Source: Thermodesulfovibrio sp.
GTDB taxonomy: Bacteria > Nitrospirota > Thermodesulfovibrionia > UBA6902
Reading direction: 5' to 3'
Assembly (NCBI GenBank): GCA_026982355.1
Contig: JALSHG010000087.1
Location: 1 to 51,858, forward strand
DNA length: 51,858 bases
Positions 9,967 through 47,892 of this stretch are shown one piece after another (the first letter of the stretch is position 1; every line of letters begins with the position of its first letter). A program made the translations under genes and the position numbers. The notes beneath the pieces are model-generated. The model was not told the DNA's origin. It saw nothing but the letters and a program-made list of their open reading frames with translations, and did no database searches.

Positions 9967-10052
9967 TTTAATGTTGCATAAGCCGGCAGTGGAGTCCGCC
10001 GTAAAACCTCCGGACTCCACTGCACGCGGGCGGTATTTATGGCACTGTAAGG
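9967..10052 (+). mobile_element. Medium inverted-repeat element
   Basis: It opens TTTTAATGTTGCATAAGCC and closes TATGGCACTGTAAGG. The inner arms GCAGTGGAGTCCG and CGGACTCCACTGC pair perfectly over 13 bases around CCGTAAAACCT. Orientation follows the plus-strand genes on both sides. Confidence 0.8.
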
Positions 10053-10512: not shown

Positions 10513-10565
10513 TTAATATTGATGTTGCATAAGCCGGCGGTAGAGTCCGGCGTAAAGTCCGTAAG
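10513..10565 (+). mobile_element. Degenerate element copy supplying a start codon
   Basis: The left half (GATGTTGCATAAGCCGGCGG then AGAGTCCGGCGTAAA) matches the family. The right part is shortened, ending GTCCGTAAGG. The ATG of its left end (10522) is in frame with the following open reading frame. Confidence 0.55.
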
Positions 10566-18470: not shown

Positions 18471-18540
18471 ATTTCCGATATCCCTTCGCTTTATAAAGGT
18501 TTTACGGCGGACTCCCCTGCCGGCTTGTGCAACATTAAGG
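18327..18540 (-). mobile_element. Long inverted-repeat element (214 bp)
   Basis: On the minus strand it begins CCTTAATGTTGCACAAGCC and ends TTTATGACACTGTAAGG. The inner arms GGCAGGGGAGTCC and GGACTCCCCTGCC flank about 130 bases holding the 48-codon frame. It sits between flgH and flgI, inside an operon, in the same direction as the genes. Confidence 0.85.
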
Positions 18541-41886: not shown

Positions 41887-43368
41887 TCAGACGCCTTCGT
41901 ATTTCTTCATGCGCCAGTATTCCGCATTCAGTGTCTCAACAATATAATCCAGCCTGCGCGTCCTGATGAATTTTCTCATGGCATCCACAAATACCCACGG
42001 ATGCCTGAATAATATGCTCAGGAGAATCGAGTAGAAACTTATATTGCCTGAACTGCTGAGATAATTCCTGCGGAAAAAGGCGTTCTGCATCTCCCTGCGT
42101 ATATCCCTCAGTTCCTCTTTTCCGAAAGTTATGGACATGAGAGGAAGCTCGGGCTGCCTGTGCGCCCATATCTCGGAAAACGGCATATTCGGGTCGAGCC
42201 ATCCGTTTTCAATGGCCATGTCGTAAATCGCCGTTCCCGGATATGGCGTGAGAAAATAAAATGCGGTGTAATCAGCCGCTATCTCCTTGGCCAGATCAAA
42301 GCTCTGCCGTATGTCTTCCTTGGTCTCCTCGGGATTGCCGATTATAAAGGTCGCCAGGGTCCTGATATCAAGCTCTTTGCACAGCTTGAAGGAATGCTTG
42401 ATCTGCTCGGCCCTGTCCCCGGCGCCGCCCTTGCCCAGGACCTTCAGTATCTTCTCCGAACCGCTCTCGACGCCGAAGTCGAGCTGGACAAGCCCGGACT
42501 CCTTCATCAGTTTCATCAGTTCCCTGTCCGTCTGGTCGACCCTTGACTGGCCGGCCCACTTGATATTCAGTTTCCTCCGTTTTAATTCCTCGCAGTACTC
42601 CCTTACCCACTTCGGACTCAGTGTAAATGTATCGTCGCAGTAATAGATGCCGGTGATGCCGAATGTCTCATGCAGGTATTCTATCTCGTCGACAACGTTC
42701 TTCACGGAGCGCCTTCTCGTCTTTCTGCCGAATATATTGTGGCTGCCGCAGTATATGCACTTAAACGGGCATCCCCTGCTCGTCACAATGGTTGTCTGGT
42801 TCTTGTCGGCATGGCCCCTTATAATTCCCGGCGGCTTGAGATACGGCCTCATGTCGATAAGGTGGCGCGCGGGAAACGGAATGCTGTCCAGGTCTTTTAT
42901 CAGCTCTCGCCTGCCGTTGTCTATGATGTCGCCGTTTTTACGGTAGGTGACGCCCTTCACACCGTCAAGACCCTCGTTTTTTTCGAGTTTCCCGCATACC
43001 TCGACCATGGTGTCTTCACCTTCCCCAACCACTATGAAGTCGAGATCGAAGTCTTTCAGTGTCTCAACGGGCTTGACCGTGGTGTGCACGCCTCCGGAGC
43101 AGTATGCCACGTCGGGCAGCTCGCGCCTTAACTCTTTCAAGAAATTGGATGCCCGCTGGTAGCCGACCGTCAGGAAACTCAGTCCCACGAGGTCGGGGGC
43201 GAATTCCTTGATTTCCCTGATGATGCCTGCGTGGTACTGCGGGTCGGCGTCGAACACCTGAACCGCATGGCCCGCCTTTTCCAGAACGGCGGCGATATAC
43301 AGGAGACCCAGCGGCGGTACAACGTTATTGCCGTCCAATACCTGTGAATTAACTAAAGTGACTCTCAT
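41887..43368 (-). CDS. B12-binding-domain radical SAM protein
   Basis: 493 residues. The N-terminal cobalamin-binding-like domain (about 1-140: VPPLGLLYIAAVLEKAGHAV, GLSFLTVGYQRASNFLKEL) lacks an obvious DxHxxG. The radical SAM core has RGCPFKCIYCGS near residue 200, then GITGIYYCDDTFTLSPKWV and GLVQLDFGVESGSEKILKVL. The C-terminal helical region is typical of the BchE/P-methylase group. Substrate is unknown. It lies downstream of the radical SAM-ArsM fusion on the same strand, with a repeat between them. Confidence 0.85.
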   Translation of the reverse strand: MRVTLVNSQVLDGNNVVPPLGLLYIAAVLEKAGHAVQVFDADPQYHAGIIREIKEFAPDLVGLSFLTVGYQRASNFLKELRRELPDVAYCSGGVHTTVKPVETLKDFDLDFIVVGEGEDTMVEVCGKLEKNEGLDGVKGVTYRKNGDIIDNGRRELIKDLDSIPFPARHLIDMRPYLKPPGIIRGHADKNQTTIVTSRGCPFKCIYCGSHNIFGRKTRRRSVKNVVDEIEYLHETFGITGIYYCDDTFTLSPKWVREYCEELKRRKLNIKWAGQSRVDQTDRELMKLMKESGLVQLDFGVESGSEKILKVLGKGGAGDRAEQIKHSFKLCKELDIRTLATFIIGNPEETKEDIRQSFDLAKEIAADYTAFYFLTPYPGTAIYDMAIENGWLDPNMPFSEIWAHRQPELPLMSITFGKEELRDIRREMQNAFFRRNYLSSSGNISFYSILLSILFRHPWVFVDAMRKFIRTRRLDYIVETLNAEYWRMKKYEGV

Positions 43369-43401: not shown

Positions 43402-43489
43402 TTTATACAGTTGCATCAAAACATCGCCTGCGGGCACGGGGTCGGGAGGTTTTACGCCGGACTCTCCTGCCCGCTTATGCAACATTAAA
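43402..43489 (-). mobile_element. Medium inverted-repeat element
   Basis: The plus strand begins TATACAGTTGCATCAAAAC and ends GCTTATGCAACATTAAAG. The inner stem keeps GGGCA/TGCCC pairing with mismatches beyond. It lies between the two radical SAM genes in gene direction. Confidence 0.75.
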
Positions 43490-43500
43490 GCTTCATCTTC

Positions 43501-45918
43501 TCAGCAACAGGCATGACACCGGGAACGGACCTTCCGCGGTTTGCTGCCCCTTATCGTGATCGAATGAAACCTGATATATTCGACCTTCTTGTAAAGATAG
43601 TTCTTAGTTAATCGGATATTGGAAAATCCGGCATTCTCCGCCAGTTCCCTGAATCTCTTGTCCGTAAGCGCACCGGACAGACACGCATTCCACAGTTCCT
43701 TGTCTCTCTTCAGATAACCGGGGACGGGCTTGTCGGAGACTATATCCGAGATAATAAACCTCCCTCCCGGTTTTAATATCCGGTAAACCTCATTCAGCAC
43801 CTTGGCCTTGTCCTCCGTCAGATTGATAACGCAGTTGGATATGACGAGATCGACCGAATTGTCATCGACAGGCAGTTCCATGATGTTTCCGCTCCGGAAC
43901 TCGACGATATCATATCCCAGCGCATCACCGACCTTCCTGGCATTCTCCCTCGCCTTCTCAAGCATCTCGTCCGTCATGTCTATCCCGATCACTTTTCCCC
44001 TGCTGCCGAGTTTCCTGGCTGCTATAAAGCAGTCGATGCCCCCGCCGGCGCCCAGGTCCACGATCGTCTCTCCCTCCTTTATGTCCGCCAGCGCAGCGGG
44101 ATTGCCGCAGCCGTAGGAGACCTCGAGGACCTCATTGGGTATGTGATCCAGGTCTTTCGGGTCATAGCCTGTCGGGCAGTAATAATTGGCCACCGGATTA
44201 TAGGCGGCCTTTGAAAATTTTTTCTTCACGGTCTTTGTAACATGACCTTTTATCTCGGGCTTGCAGACCTCTTCGTCATCCTCCACATCAACCGAAAGAA
44301 CGCATGAGCAGTGGTAGCAGCCGACCTCGAAATTCCTGTCGACCTTCCTGATGCCCGCACCCAGGTGACCGGGGAGTTTCGCGTCCATGGCATTGTACAC
44401 AAGGGGCGCGAAATACCCGTTGCCTTTCTGAGGGGTGACGCCCTCTGATGCAAGCTCCCATATGATATCCTCGAACAGGGCCTTGTAGGTCGGACAGTAA
44501 GGGTCGACCGCCGTGACGGACCCCCTGCCCGTGTCAACCTCGCTTGCATAGTAACTGTGGGATGTGCATCCGCCCCCGCAGAAATATTCGAGATAGCATG
44601 ATCGGCATTCGGGCTTGTTTCGAACACTGTTCCGCCTGCCTCTTTCCATGACCTTTGAATTCAGCCAGATATCCTTCAGGGATTTCTTCCGGATGGAGCC
44701 CGCATCAAAGTGTTTGTCGCCGTTAAGGGATGCGCAGGGATAGACATGCCCGTCTGCGTTTACGCAGATTTTTTCATAACAGTTGTTGCAGAGGTCGTTC
44801 TTGCGCCCCCTCTTCGTGCGCACGCGGACCTTCAACGACTCCACGTTGTCCAGTATGATCTCCTGCTCCCTGTAGAGGCCTTTCAGTTTTTTCATGACCC
44901 CCGCAATATTCTCGGCAGGGACGAACAGTTCCTCCGCATTGCTGGCGCCCCGGCCCTTGGCATGCATCCACAGGAGATTGTGCTCCTGTATGCCGAGTTT
45001 CGACAGGAAGCGCGAGGTCTTTGCAATGTGATTCTCGTTCAGCTTGCTCACGGCTGTGGAGACGATGGGGATTATTCCGATGCCGATCAGGTTCTTTATT
45101 CCCCTGACCGCCGCATCAAAGCTGCCCTTTCCGCGGAGCCTGTCGTGAATCTCCGCATTCGGCCCTTCGAGGCTGACCTGCAGGATAAGCCTGGGGCTCA
45201 TCACCTTTTTCAGAGCCGCTATCTTCTCCTCATCAAAGAGCGTGGCGTTTGTGAGGATGATAAGCTCGCGTCTCTTCCTCTTCGTAATATACTTTATTAG
45301 ATCGAAAACACCTTCCTTTATGAAGGGCTCGCCCCCTGTAATGTAGAACCGCTTGACGCCCAGCCTGACCGCTTCGTCCACAAGCGACCTGAACTCCTCA
45401 TCGGTCAGTTCTTTTCTCAGCCCCTTCCCTGCGCTCACAAGGCAGTGCCTGCACCTGAGATTGCACGCAAGGGTGTAATATATCCAGAGTTCATCCAGTT
45501 TGTAAGGTGCAATGGCCTTGCTCCTGCCGGGATATTCGGGCTTTTCATACCTGTGGTCGGATACAAAGTCAAGCAGCTCCGCCGCCCCGAGAAACTCCGA
45601 GACATCCTGTCTGACCTTGCCCTTGATGGATGATACCCCGTATTTCCTGCACACGGCGTCCTGTATCTCCGCCAGTGTATGCTTCCCGTCACATAGACCG
45701 AGGATATACGCGCCAGTGCTGTTTACACTGATCCAGTTGGGCGACTCCGGGTCTATAAGGAGGGAGATTCCGTTTCTGCGTTTTTTGATATACGCCGGGG
45801 TGTATAGGATATCATCCGCCCTGAAATATTTGAGATCGGGGTCTTTGATTTTCCACTCTGCAGGATTATACTTTTTGATTCTTTCTTCTCTTCCCGTATC
45901 ACAGCAGCCTTTAGCCAT
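43501..45918 (-). CDS. PqqD-like / radical SAM / SPASM / ArsM-type methyltransferase fusion
   Basis: 805 residues in one frame. Residues about 50-118 resemble PqqD (NWISVNSTGAYILGLCDGKH). The radical SAM core has ACNLRCRHC (C152, C156, C159) and FYITGGEPF. A SPASM-type cysteine cluster follows (CNNCYEKICVNADGHVYPC, CRSCYLEYFCGGGC). A linker carries CYHCSC (from 534). The C-terminal 200 residues look like arsenite methyltransferase: IVDLGAGGGIDCFIAARKLG, SNCVINLTEDKAKVLNEVYR, WNACLSGAL. All three arsenic-binding Cys of ArsM have counterparts (C604, C696, C746). Extra Cys lie at both tips (GCC near the start, CHACC at the end). GGAG precedes the ATG. The likely substrate is arsenic or a thiol-bound relative; the radical step is unknown. 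Confidence 0.85.
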   Translation of the reverse strand: MAKGCCDTGREERIKKYNPAEWKIKDPDLKYFRADDILYTPAYIKKRRNGISLLIDPESPNWISVNSTGAYILGLCDGKHTLAEIQDAVCRKYGVSSIKGKVRQDVSEFLGAAELLDFVSDHRYEKPEYPGRSKAIAPYKLDELWIYYTLACNLRCRHCLVSAGKGLRKELTDEEFRSLVDEAVRLGVKRFYITGGEPFIKEGVFDLIKYITKRKRRELIILTNATLFDEEKIAALKKVMSPRLILQVSLEGPNAEIHDRLRGKGSFDAAVRGIKNLIGIGIIPIVSTAVSKLNENHIAKTSRFLSKLGIQEHNLLWMHAKGRGASNAEELFVPAENIAGVMKKLKGLYREQEIILDNVESLKVRVRTKRGRKNDLCNNCYEKICVNADGHVYPCASLNGDKHFDAGSIRKKSLKDIWLNSKVMERGRRNSVRNKPECRSCYLEYFCGGGCTSHSYYASEVDTGRGSVTAVDPYCPTYKALFEDIIWELASEGVTPQKGNGYFAPLVYNAMDAKLPGHLGAGIRKVDRNFEVGCYHCSCVLSVDVEDDEEVCKPEIKGHVTKTVKKKFSKAAYNPVANYYCPTGYDPKDLDHIPNEVLEVSYGCGNPAALADIKEGETIVDLGAGGGIDCFIAARKLGSRGKVIGIDMTDEMLEKARENARKVGDALGYDIVEFRSGNIMELPVDDNSVDLVISNCVINLTEDKAKVLNEVYRILKPGGRFIISDIVSDKPVPGYLKRDKELWNACLSGALTDKRFRELAENAGFSNIRLTKNYLYKKVEYIRFHSITIRGSKPRKVRSRCHACC

Positions 45919-46232: not shown

Positions 46233-46321
46233 ACTTAATGTTGCATAAGCCGGCAGGAGAGTCCGTCGTAAAACTTCAGGACCCCCCTGCGCCCGGGTGG
46301 TATTCTTATGTCTCTGCAGAG
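46233..46321 (+). mobile_element. Medium inverted-repeat element
   Basis: It opens ACTTAATGTTGCATAAGCC and closes CTTATGTCTCTGCAGAG. The inner stem CAGGAGAGTCC/GGACCCCCCTG has mismatches. ATAA occurs on both edges (46230-46233 and 46322-46325), a possible target duplication. Confidence 0.75.
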
Positions 46322-46353: not shown

Positions 46354-47892
46354 ATGAAATCCGCTGTGCATAAAACAAGCCTTGTGGTGCGCAAGAACAG
46401 GGAGCTTACCGCAATCCTTGAGGTAAGCAAGGTGCTCACCACTTCGTTTAACCTTGATAAAAACCTCTCTTCGGTGATGTCGACTCTCGGCAGTCTCCTT
46501 GAGATGCAGAGGGGGTGTGTCTTCCTGCTCGACCGCCTGTCAGGGGAGTTGCGCATTGTCGCCGCGCACGGGCTCGCCAAGCACAATATAGAGAGGGGGA
46601 AGTACCGGATCGGGGAAGGTATCGTTGGCCGTGTGCTTGAAAAAAAGACCCCCATGGTAATCCCGAATATAGGCAAGGAGCCCCTTTTTCTCAACAGGAC
46701 AGGGTCAAGGCCCGAAAAGGACGGCATATCTTTCCTGTGCGTGCCCATACAGTTTAAAAACGAAGTGCTCGGCGTATTGAGTGTGGACAGGATATACTCA
46801 AAAGAACTCGGCGGTGTTGATGACGACCTGAGGGTGCTGGAGATCGTTTCATCGCTGATAGCGCAGTTTGTCAAGCTGTGGGAGAGTTACGAGAAGGTGG
46901 AGAAGGAGAAGGAGAATCTGAAGAGGGAGCTGAGGGGCAAATACAGTATAGAGAACATCATCGGCCAGTCCGACAGGATGCAGGAGGTCTTCGAGGCGGT
47001 CTACCGCGTGGCCCCGTCAAAGGCAACCGTGCTCCTGCGCGGGGAGAGCGGAACCGGCAAAGAGCTTGTGGCCAAGGCAATCCACTACATGAGCCCCAGA
47101 AGCAAGGGCCCGTTCGTCAAGTTCAACTGCGCCTCGATCCCTGAGGGCCTTCTGGAGTCCGAGCTCTTCGGCCATGAGAAAGGCGCATTCACGGGCGCCG
47201 TCTCCTCAAGGAAAGGCAAGTTCGAGCTTGCCCACAAGGGCACTATCTTCCTTGACGAGATAGGCGACCTGCCGACAACGCTCCAGCCGAAGATACTGCG
47301 CGTGCTGCAGGAAAGGGAGTTTGAACGCGTGGGCAGTGAAAAGACCATCAAGGTGGATGTCAGGATCATCACTGCCACAAGCAGGAACCTGGAGCATCTC
47401 GTATCACAGGGGAAATTCAGGGAAGACCTCTATTACAGGCTCAATGTAATACCCCTCTTCCTGCCGCCTTTGCGGGAAAGGGGTGAAGACATACCCATAC
47501 TCATCGACCACTTTCTGGAGAAGTTCAACAGGGAAAACAACCGCTCTGTCGTATTCGACAAGAACGCCCTGAGGATATTCCTCAATTACAACTGGCCCGG
47601 CAACGTGAGGGAACTTGAAAACACCATCGAGAGACTGGTGATCATGTCCGCCTCGGACAAGATCACCGCCGCGGACCTGCCTGTGTCGCTCAGTATACGC
47701 CGCTTGAAGACCCCCGACAAATCAGCCTCACTGATAACCAATGTTGAGGAGATCGAAAAGGCGAACATTCTTGACGCCCTTGAAAAAACCGGCTGGGTGC
47801 AGGCAAGGGCGGCGCGCCTGCTCGGCATCACTCCAAGGCAGATAGGGTACAAGATAAAGAAGTACGAGATAGCGGAAAAGGCCGTGCAGTAA
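46354..47892 (+). CDS. nifA: NifA-like sigma-54 activator (GAF-AAA+-HTH)
   Basis: 512 residues. The GAF domain (about 25-175) starts [20 protein letters not shown]. The AAA+ domain has [15 protein letters not shown], the sigma-54 contact loop [11 protein letters not shown], and [12 protein letters not shown] as Walker B. The Fis-type helix-turn-helix ends [20 protein letters not shown], which is very NifA-like. No cysteines lie between the AAA+ and HTH domains, so it is not the oxygen-sensing CxxxxC class. No nif genes are in the window; it might instead drive other sigma-54 genes. No clear ribosome-binding site is seen at ATG 46354. Confidence 0.8.

Follow-up and report, generated by a model that had tools for sequence, protein, structure and literature searches.

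A predicted PqqD/RRE-radical SAM-SPASM-ArsM fusion protein of Thermodesulfovibrio sp. with a probable role in organoarsenical synthesis

The protein described here, which is encoded in Thermodesulfovibrio sp., probably synthesizes organoarsenic compounds along a route that is absent from the papers and family libraries searched. We favour, with a probability of about 0.6, the view that it is a bifunctional organoarsenical enzyme, in which an ArsM methylase is joined to a radical SAM enzyme that forms C-As bonds and acts as a non-orthologous replacement of ArsS. The domains, the conservation of the arsenic ligands, a natural split of the protein, the gene context and the absence of ArsS form the computed basis of this reading; what the radical reaction is, where the adenosyl group comes from, what C539 does, which final product results and whether the subtype studied here shares it are what we infer. 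Within the papers and family libraries searched, outside of which most subscription journals lie, no report of an ArsM-radical SAM fusion or of a PqqD/SPASM arsenic enzyme was found. The gene is located on a stretch of 51,858 nucleotides, hereafter the window (assembly GCA_026982355.1, contig JALSHG010000087.1).

The gene is an open reading frame with an ATG start on the minus strand. Sequence profiles and an AlphaFold model computed from 42 sequences (mean pLDDT 84, pTM 0.76) give the domain order PqqD/RRE, radical SAM, SPASM, linker and ArsM (Table 1). The radical SAM/SPASM/ArsM fusion with a PqqD-like front, as proposed in the initial annotation, is confirmed by the reading frame, the profiles and the confident model, and the structure prediction that it had recommended yields a CteB fold for the front and a CmArsM fold for the back. 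In the methyltransferase part, Pfam Methyltransf_31 matches residues 613-764, and the best NCBIfam match of the fusion is the arsenite methyltransferase model PRK11873 (residues 577-777, 262.9 bits for a cut-off of 263). The chain is predicted, from sequence and model, to combine two types of active site, one for radical SAM chemistry and one for SAM-dependent methylation, the latter provided with As(III) ligands.

Table 1 Features of the window discussed in the text, with positions in the window and strand
Feature	Position	Strand	Basis or remark
PqqD/RRE-radical SAM-SPASM-ArsM fusion, 805 aa	43501..45918	-	Reading frame and translation, Pfam, NCBIfam, relatives
PqqD/RRE-like domain, residues 54-112	45583..45759	-	Pfam PF05402, 46.7 bits, cut-off 23.4; CteB match from residue 41
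Radical SAM core, residues 147-304	45007..45480	-	Pfam PF04055, 94.7 bits
CX3CX2C motif, C152/C156/C159	45442..45465	-	Invariant in 73 relatives
SPASM region, full 7-Cys motif, residues 377-475	44494..44790	-	Motif check; Pfam SPASM at 377-442
CYHCSC tail of the radical SAM half, C534/C537/C539	44302..44319	-	C539 invariant; split radical protein ends just after the motif
ArsM domain, residues 578-795	43534..44187	-	phmmer to ArsM structures; fold
C604, As(III) ligand position	44107..44109	-	phmmer alignment, conservation
C696, As(III) ligand position	43831..43833	-	phmmer alignment, conservation
C746, As(III) ligand position	43681..43683	-	phmmer alignment, conservation
B12-binding radical SAM protein, 493 aa, downstream partner	41887..43368	-	Pfam B12-binding and Radical_SAM
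GAF/sigma-54 activator, NifA-like, divergent from the fusion	46354..47892	+	Neighbour in part of the loci; putative role
26-nt repeat copies	9971-9996, 10522-10547, 18510-18535, 43460-43485, 46238-46263		

A scan of GTDB contigs for relatives of the fusion identified 77 loci, which form three groups. The N group, to which the protein of the window belongs, is of the Nitrospirota/Thermodesulfovibrionia type (about 805 aa). The S group (about 850 aa) comprises Scalindua and other anammox bacteria, one acidobacterial, one deltaproteobacterial and several archaeal MAGs, and further Nitrospirota families. The D group is of the Desulfobulbales type (about 1045 aa) and exhibits a C-terminal DUF5714, which is Cys-rich (L050-L077). 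One Nitrospirota genome contains three S-type copies, two of which are directly followed by a PiT permease gene. A tree of the ArsM domain was built rapidly and does not settle how often fusion took place.

With regard to the ArsM half, residues 583-795 of the AlphaFold model match CmArsM (PDB code 4fr0) with a Z score of 27.4 and an rmsd of 1.7 over 212 residues. In phmmer alignments with the ArsM chains of the PDB, C604 corresponds to the Cys of GCGNP, C696 to that of SNCV and C746 to that of CLxGAL, and we take these residues to be equivalent to C72, C174 and C224 of CmArsM, the three As(III) ligands. Among 73 full-length relatives from three deep lineages, C604 is conserved in all, C696 in 72 and C746 in 71, the exceptions being one substitution and two alignment gaps, both gaps at C746; the lineages most distant from the query, which are about 31-35% identical to it, still keep these residues. 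C630 is invariant in the same relatives, and C581, near the first ArsM Cys, constitutes a fourth Cys. An ArsM fold with three As(III)-ligand Cys had been predicted from the sequence, and alignment, fold and conservation bear this out; loss of the three Cys in relatives, which had been named as refuting evidence, was looked for, and the residues were found to be kept. The C-terminal extension of ArsM is missing in the N subtype, and is kept by the S and D subtypes and by a stand-alone ArsM (L080).

The radical half has peptide and porphyrin enzymes as its nearest profile models, and residues 41-493 of the AlphaFold model, including the RRE domain, match the sactisynthase CteB (PDB code 5wgg) with a Z score of 30.8. 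As the nearest models are of these kinds, and as this half is not an ArsS by HMM or by tree, its chemistry is not readable from homology. An RRE fold is characteristic of peptide-maturing enzymes, and here it is accompanied by a PqqD Pfam match and, in the window's subtype, by a complete SPASM motif (CX9GX4C at 380-395, CX2CX5CX3C at 438-451, and C475). These features would suit a RiPP maturase that recognizes a leader peptide through its RRE, introduces crosslinks into a Cys-rich peptide with its radical half and uses the ArsM domain for methylation or metallation of that peptide. Nevertheless, we consider this function improbable: no open reading frame of 20-110 aa is conserved across the loci within 1.5 kb, where the matches are lineage-local or due to chance, although a peptide gene could lie farther away, and the fusion and the gene downstream are in most cases 28-46 nt apart. 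The PqqD signal falls short of the cut-off in one of two S representatives and is missing from the other and from a D representative, and the genomic context is one of glycosyltransferase and arsenosugar-type genes. Furthermore, the seven SPASM Cys are all kept in N, whereas C395 and C451 are mostly lost in S and nearly all seven are lost in D, the arsenic-binding Cys being retained. By analogy with anSME, a protein without C395 and C451 would have lost auxiliary cluster I but retained cluster II. The RiPP-like partner and the modification of a Cys-rich peptide that had been suggested earlier are thus not supported by the gene neighbourhood or by the conservation pattern.

The extra Cys clusters previously noted at both tips and in the linker are indeed present but, apart from C539, are limited to one clade or variable. 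C5-C6 and C534 are kept only by the Nitrospirota subtype (32/32), and the C-terminal CHACC (C801-C805) is variable, C801 occurring in 20/32. The sole linker Cys that is invariant across all subtypes, in the 73 relatives, is C539. As a Cys-containing tail also ends canonical ArsS, C539 is the residue of interest.

The radical half is clearly separated from ArsS. It scores 67.8 bits against the ArsS model TIGR04167 (cut-off 300), and in a tree of the radical SAM domain, 17 ArsS sequences form a single clade (100/100) with the fusions outside; four long outgroup branches fall inside the fusions, so that this tree was used only for the separation from ArsS. Most ArsS copies examined here exhibit a tail of the form CxxCTAGxG..C, for example HCYGCTAGxGSSCGGA, compared with GCYHCSCVL in the fusion. 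The 25 best-scoring models of the fusion, of which the lowest has 86.7 bits, do not include ArsL (NF040542, cut-off 450).

The distribution of the fusion was compared with that of ArsS and of TIGR04282 and TIGR04283, for which the designation "arsenosugar biosynthesis" is NCBI's family naming and was taken as given. Among 20 genomes containing the fusion, ArsS (TIGR04167) exceeds its cut-off in one, TIGR04283 is found in 19 and TIGR04282 in 18. Among 246 Nitrospirota genomes, 14 contain the fusion, 147 TIGR04282 and 126 ArsS. In those lacking ArsS, the fusion occurs in 8/25 genomes with TIGR04282 versus 1/95 without it (Fisher p 1e-5, a value that ignores kinship). All five S-type carriers of this set have TIGR04283 and none has ArsS. 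The N type behaves differently: in the nine carriers sampled, ArsS homologues are present in five and TIGR04283 is missing from six. The genome of the window itself has five ArsS-family paralogues above the TIGR04167 cut-off, spread over four contigs (two on one of them), as well as two further ArsM-like genes, one TIGR04283 and two TIGR04282, all on contigs other than that of the fusion. Several of the ArsS-family paralogues adjoin genes for ABC transporter substrate-binding proteins or permeases. With these genes elsewhere in the same genome, the link of the N type to the arsenosugar step is looser than that of the S type or the split form and, given its B12-binding radical SAM partner (Table 1), its product may differ. 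For the S type and the split form, the pattern is best fitted by the fusion standing in where ArsS is missing.

The split form emerged from an inspection of genomes that have TIGR04282 or TIGR04283 and lack both ArsS and a strong match to the fusion. In the Nitrospirota family f21, the radical half and the ArsM half are separate genes, and no ArsS above the cut-off was found in the genomes with this split form. The radical protein, with 480-482 aa in three complete copies and 41-42% identity to the fusion, ends just past YHCSCVL[TS]V, at a point close to residue 543 of the fusion in the window. Its gene shares 19 nt with the start of a TIGR04282 gene (about 203 bits, cut-off 134) in four genomes, and a gene for a GDPD-like phosphodiesterase comes next (Pfam checked in one genome). 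The separate ArsM protein has 314-320 aa in three genomes and 54-56% identity, and its gene is the first of an ArsM-TVP38-TIGR04283 operon, in which TIGR04283 scores 270 bits for a cut-off of 182. This arrangement ties the radical half itself, and not the ArsM half alone, to arsenosugar-type genes. Genome G195 also has a fusion, which fell below the first search threshold, and G151 has pieces of a fusion cut by contig ends. In one split-form genome (L193:6428-7705), a second, NirJ-like radical SAM/SPASM protein, named by eye, adjoins TIGR04283.

That the halves can stand alone in different operons might also mean that they serve unrelated steps, for example detoxification by arsenic methylation and a radical step on a lipid or glycan precursor, and that the fusion only co-regulates them. 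The B12-binding radical SAM protein encoded next to the N-type fusions, whose nearest NCBIfam models are BchE and HpnJ, would be in line with this, although both models are matched far below their cut-offs. We regard such a division of labour as very unlikely, since the two split halves lie with two glycosyltransferase families that are placed by NCBI in a single pathway, and since ArsM-ArsS fusions independently pair the same two activities. Such fusions occur in other Nitrospirota in both orders, with ArsS first at three loci and ArsM first at one (L159, ArsS 337 bits), and being distinct from the present fusion, they indicate that these activities have been joined more than once.

The link with TIGR04282 and TIGR04283 is encountered in the split form and at two fusion loci, L146 and the locus of a Hydrothermarchaeota MAG; the window itself has no adjacent copy. 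In the Hydrothermarchaeota MAG, the fusion is directly followed by TIGR04282 (179.5 bits, cut-off 134) and then by an AglJ-like GT2. The loci of the Scalindua type and related ones exhibit varying sets of genes for a PiT permease, DUF547, GT2, DUF3179, a MerA-like FAD oxidoreductase, TVP38 and an ECF sigma factor. The ArsS loci of other Nitrospirota comprise genes for TVP38, MerA-like, DUF547, ECF sigma, TIGR04282 and TIGR04283 proteins, of which the first four are shared with the S-type fusion loci, an overlap that is qualitative since the numbers per family are small. DUF547 has no match anywhere in the window's own genome and was left unused as evidence there. Most neighbours at D-type loci are housekeeping genes; mutM, rph, tgt, radA and rnhA, named by eye, reflect shared synteny and were dropped as functional evidence. 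In three Nitrospirota-type genomes, TIGR04282 adjoins a gene that appears MoeA-like by eye, which suggests that some members of this family have roles other than arsenosugar synthesis and weakens the family, taken alone, as a marker. The conserved arsenic ligands and the association of the fusion with organoarsenical genes lend good support to the organoarsenical pathway that the initial annotation had considered.

The conserved neighbour of the N-type fusions is the gene for the B12-binding radical SAM protein, located directly downstream, a partner which the search for conserved neighbours revealed and which the earlier description lacked. It adjoins the fusion in 34 of the 39 N loci; of the other five, four run into a contig end and L026 alone lacks the gene. 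At L011 and L019, genes for a DUF47 protein and a PiT phosphate permease come next. In another genome of the window's order (G258), the gene order is TIGR04282 (201.6 bits, within 6.5 kb of the fusion), a cellulose-synthase-like GT2, three genes, an AglJ-like GT2, the fusion and the B12-binding radical SAM gene, and the AglJ-like GT2 is 56% identical to that of the Hydrothermarchaeota MAG. The proposed conserved proximity to arsR was not observed: no arsR adjoins the fusion, and the ArsR/ACR3/ArsC-like genes of the host, named by eye, share a different contig with a separate ArsM. With regard to the divergent NifA-like gene, a sigma-54 promoter was looked for upstream of the fusion, and none was found in the window or in 33 relatives. 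A 26-nt repeat with the core GACTCTCCTGCCGGCTTATGCAACAT occurs five times in the window, with up to 2 mismatches, versus 0 expected. Two inverted copies flank the fusion gene just beyond its two ends, and the repeat seems to stand before open reading frames on other contigs of the same genome; it is possibly a MITE-like or regulatory element.

The conserved B12 partner, the presence of ArsS homologues and the scarcity of TIGR04283 mean that the product of the N subtype need not equal that of ArsS. The fusion could thus have the same general role, with the radical half transferring another group, such as 3-amino-3-carboxypropyl as in ArsL, or coupling arsenic to a lipid or sugar carbon, in which case the product made with the B12 partner in the N subtype would be a new organoarsenical. 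This variant seems unlikely to us: the S-type and split forms occur with TIGR04283 and TIGR04282 and without ArsS, which is best fitted by an ArsS-like step, and the B12 partner itself is far under the ArsL cut-off (58.1 versus 450 bits with NF040542).

According to the favoured mechanism, methylation followed by an ArsS-like radical step, As(III) would be bound by the ArsM domain via C604, C696 and C746 and methylated from SAM. The methylated As(III) would then be passed to the RRE-radical SAM-SPASM half, where the tail with the invariant C539 perhaps holds or hands over arsenic. This half would form a further C-As bond, most likely by transferring a SAM-derived 5'-deoxyadenosyl group onto methylated As(III), as ArsS does, and glycosyltransferases (TIGR04282, TIGR04283 or relatives) would then give a sugar-type product. 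The RRE-like domain may be a relic or a partner-binding module. We suggest more tentatively, as a possibility with less than even odds, that a SPASM/RRE enzyme was recruited from a peptide-maturase-like ancestor for the formation of C-As bonds, independently of ArsS and ArsL, and that the B12-binding radical SAM protein extends the product of the N subtype to an unseen class of organoarsenicals.

To our knowledge, few enzymes form C-As bonds by radical chemistry, namely ArsS and ArsL. If the favoured reading is correct, the fusion would represent a third, separate radical SAM subfamily with this ability, and SPASM/RRE enzymes would not be bound to peptides. As the hosts of the fusion are anammox bacteria, Nitrospirota, Desulfobulbales-type bacteria and archaeal MAGs, organoarsenical synthesis would then extend to anoxic and subsurface lineages.

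Compared with ArsM/AS3MT, as represented by CmArsM, the ArsM half is 39% identical over 212 residues and shares the fold, the three arsenic-ligand Cys and C581, but differs in its position behind a radical SAM enzyme. The NCBIfam fusions ArsM_AhpD_UU and ArsM_DUF2284_UU likewise combine ArsM with a second domain; their partner, however, is AhpD or DUF2284 and not a radical SAM enzyme, and the present fusion scores far below their cut-offs. CteB and other RRE-radical SAM-SPASM peptide maturases share the fold of residues 41-493 and the seven-Cys SPASM motif, whereas identity is only about 20%, the fusion is joined to ArsM, and no peptide gene was found nearby. In arsinothricin synthesis, ArsL and ArsM act sequentially on one arsenic atom (PMC8552651), and a radical SAM enzyme is coupled with ArsM in both cases, ArsL being of a separate family. 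ArsS works with ArsM (PMC8552651) and adenosylates arsenic by adding a 5'-deoxyadenosyl group, according to Cheng et al. 2021 as cited in PMC12159101. The fusion resembles ArsS in being a radical SAM enzyme linked to TIGR04282 and TIGR04283, in its Cys-containing tail and in its fusion to ArsM, which ArsS exhibits in some genomes; in contrast, it belongs to another radical SAM subfamily, with SPASM and RRE domains and a different tail motif.
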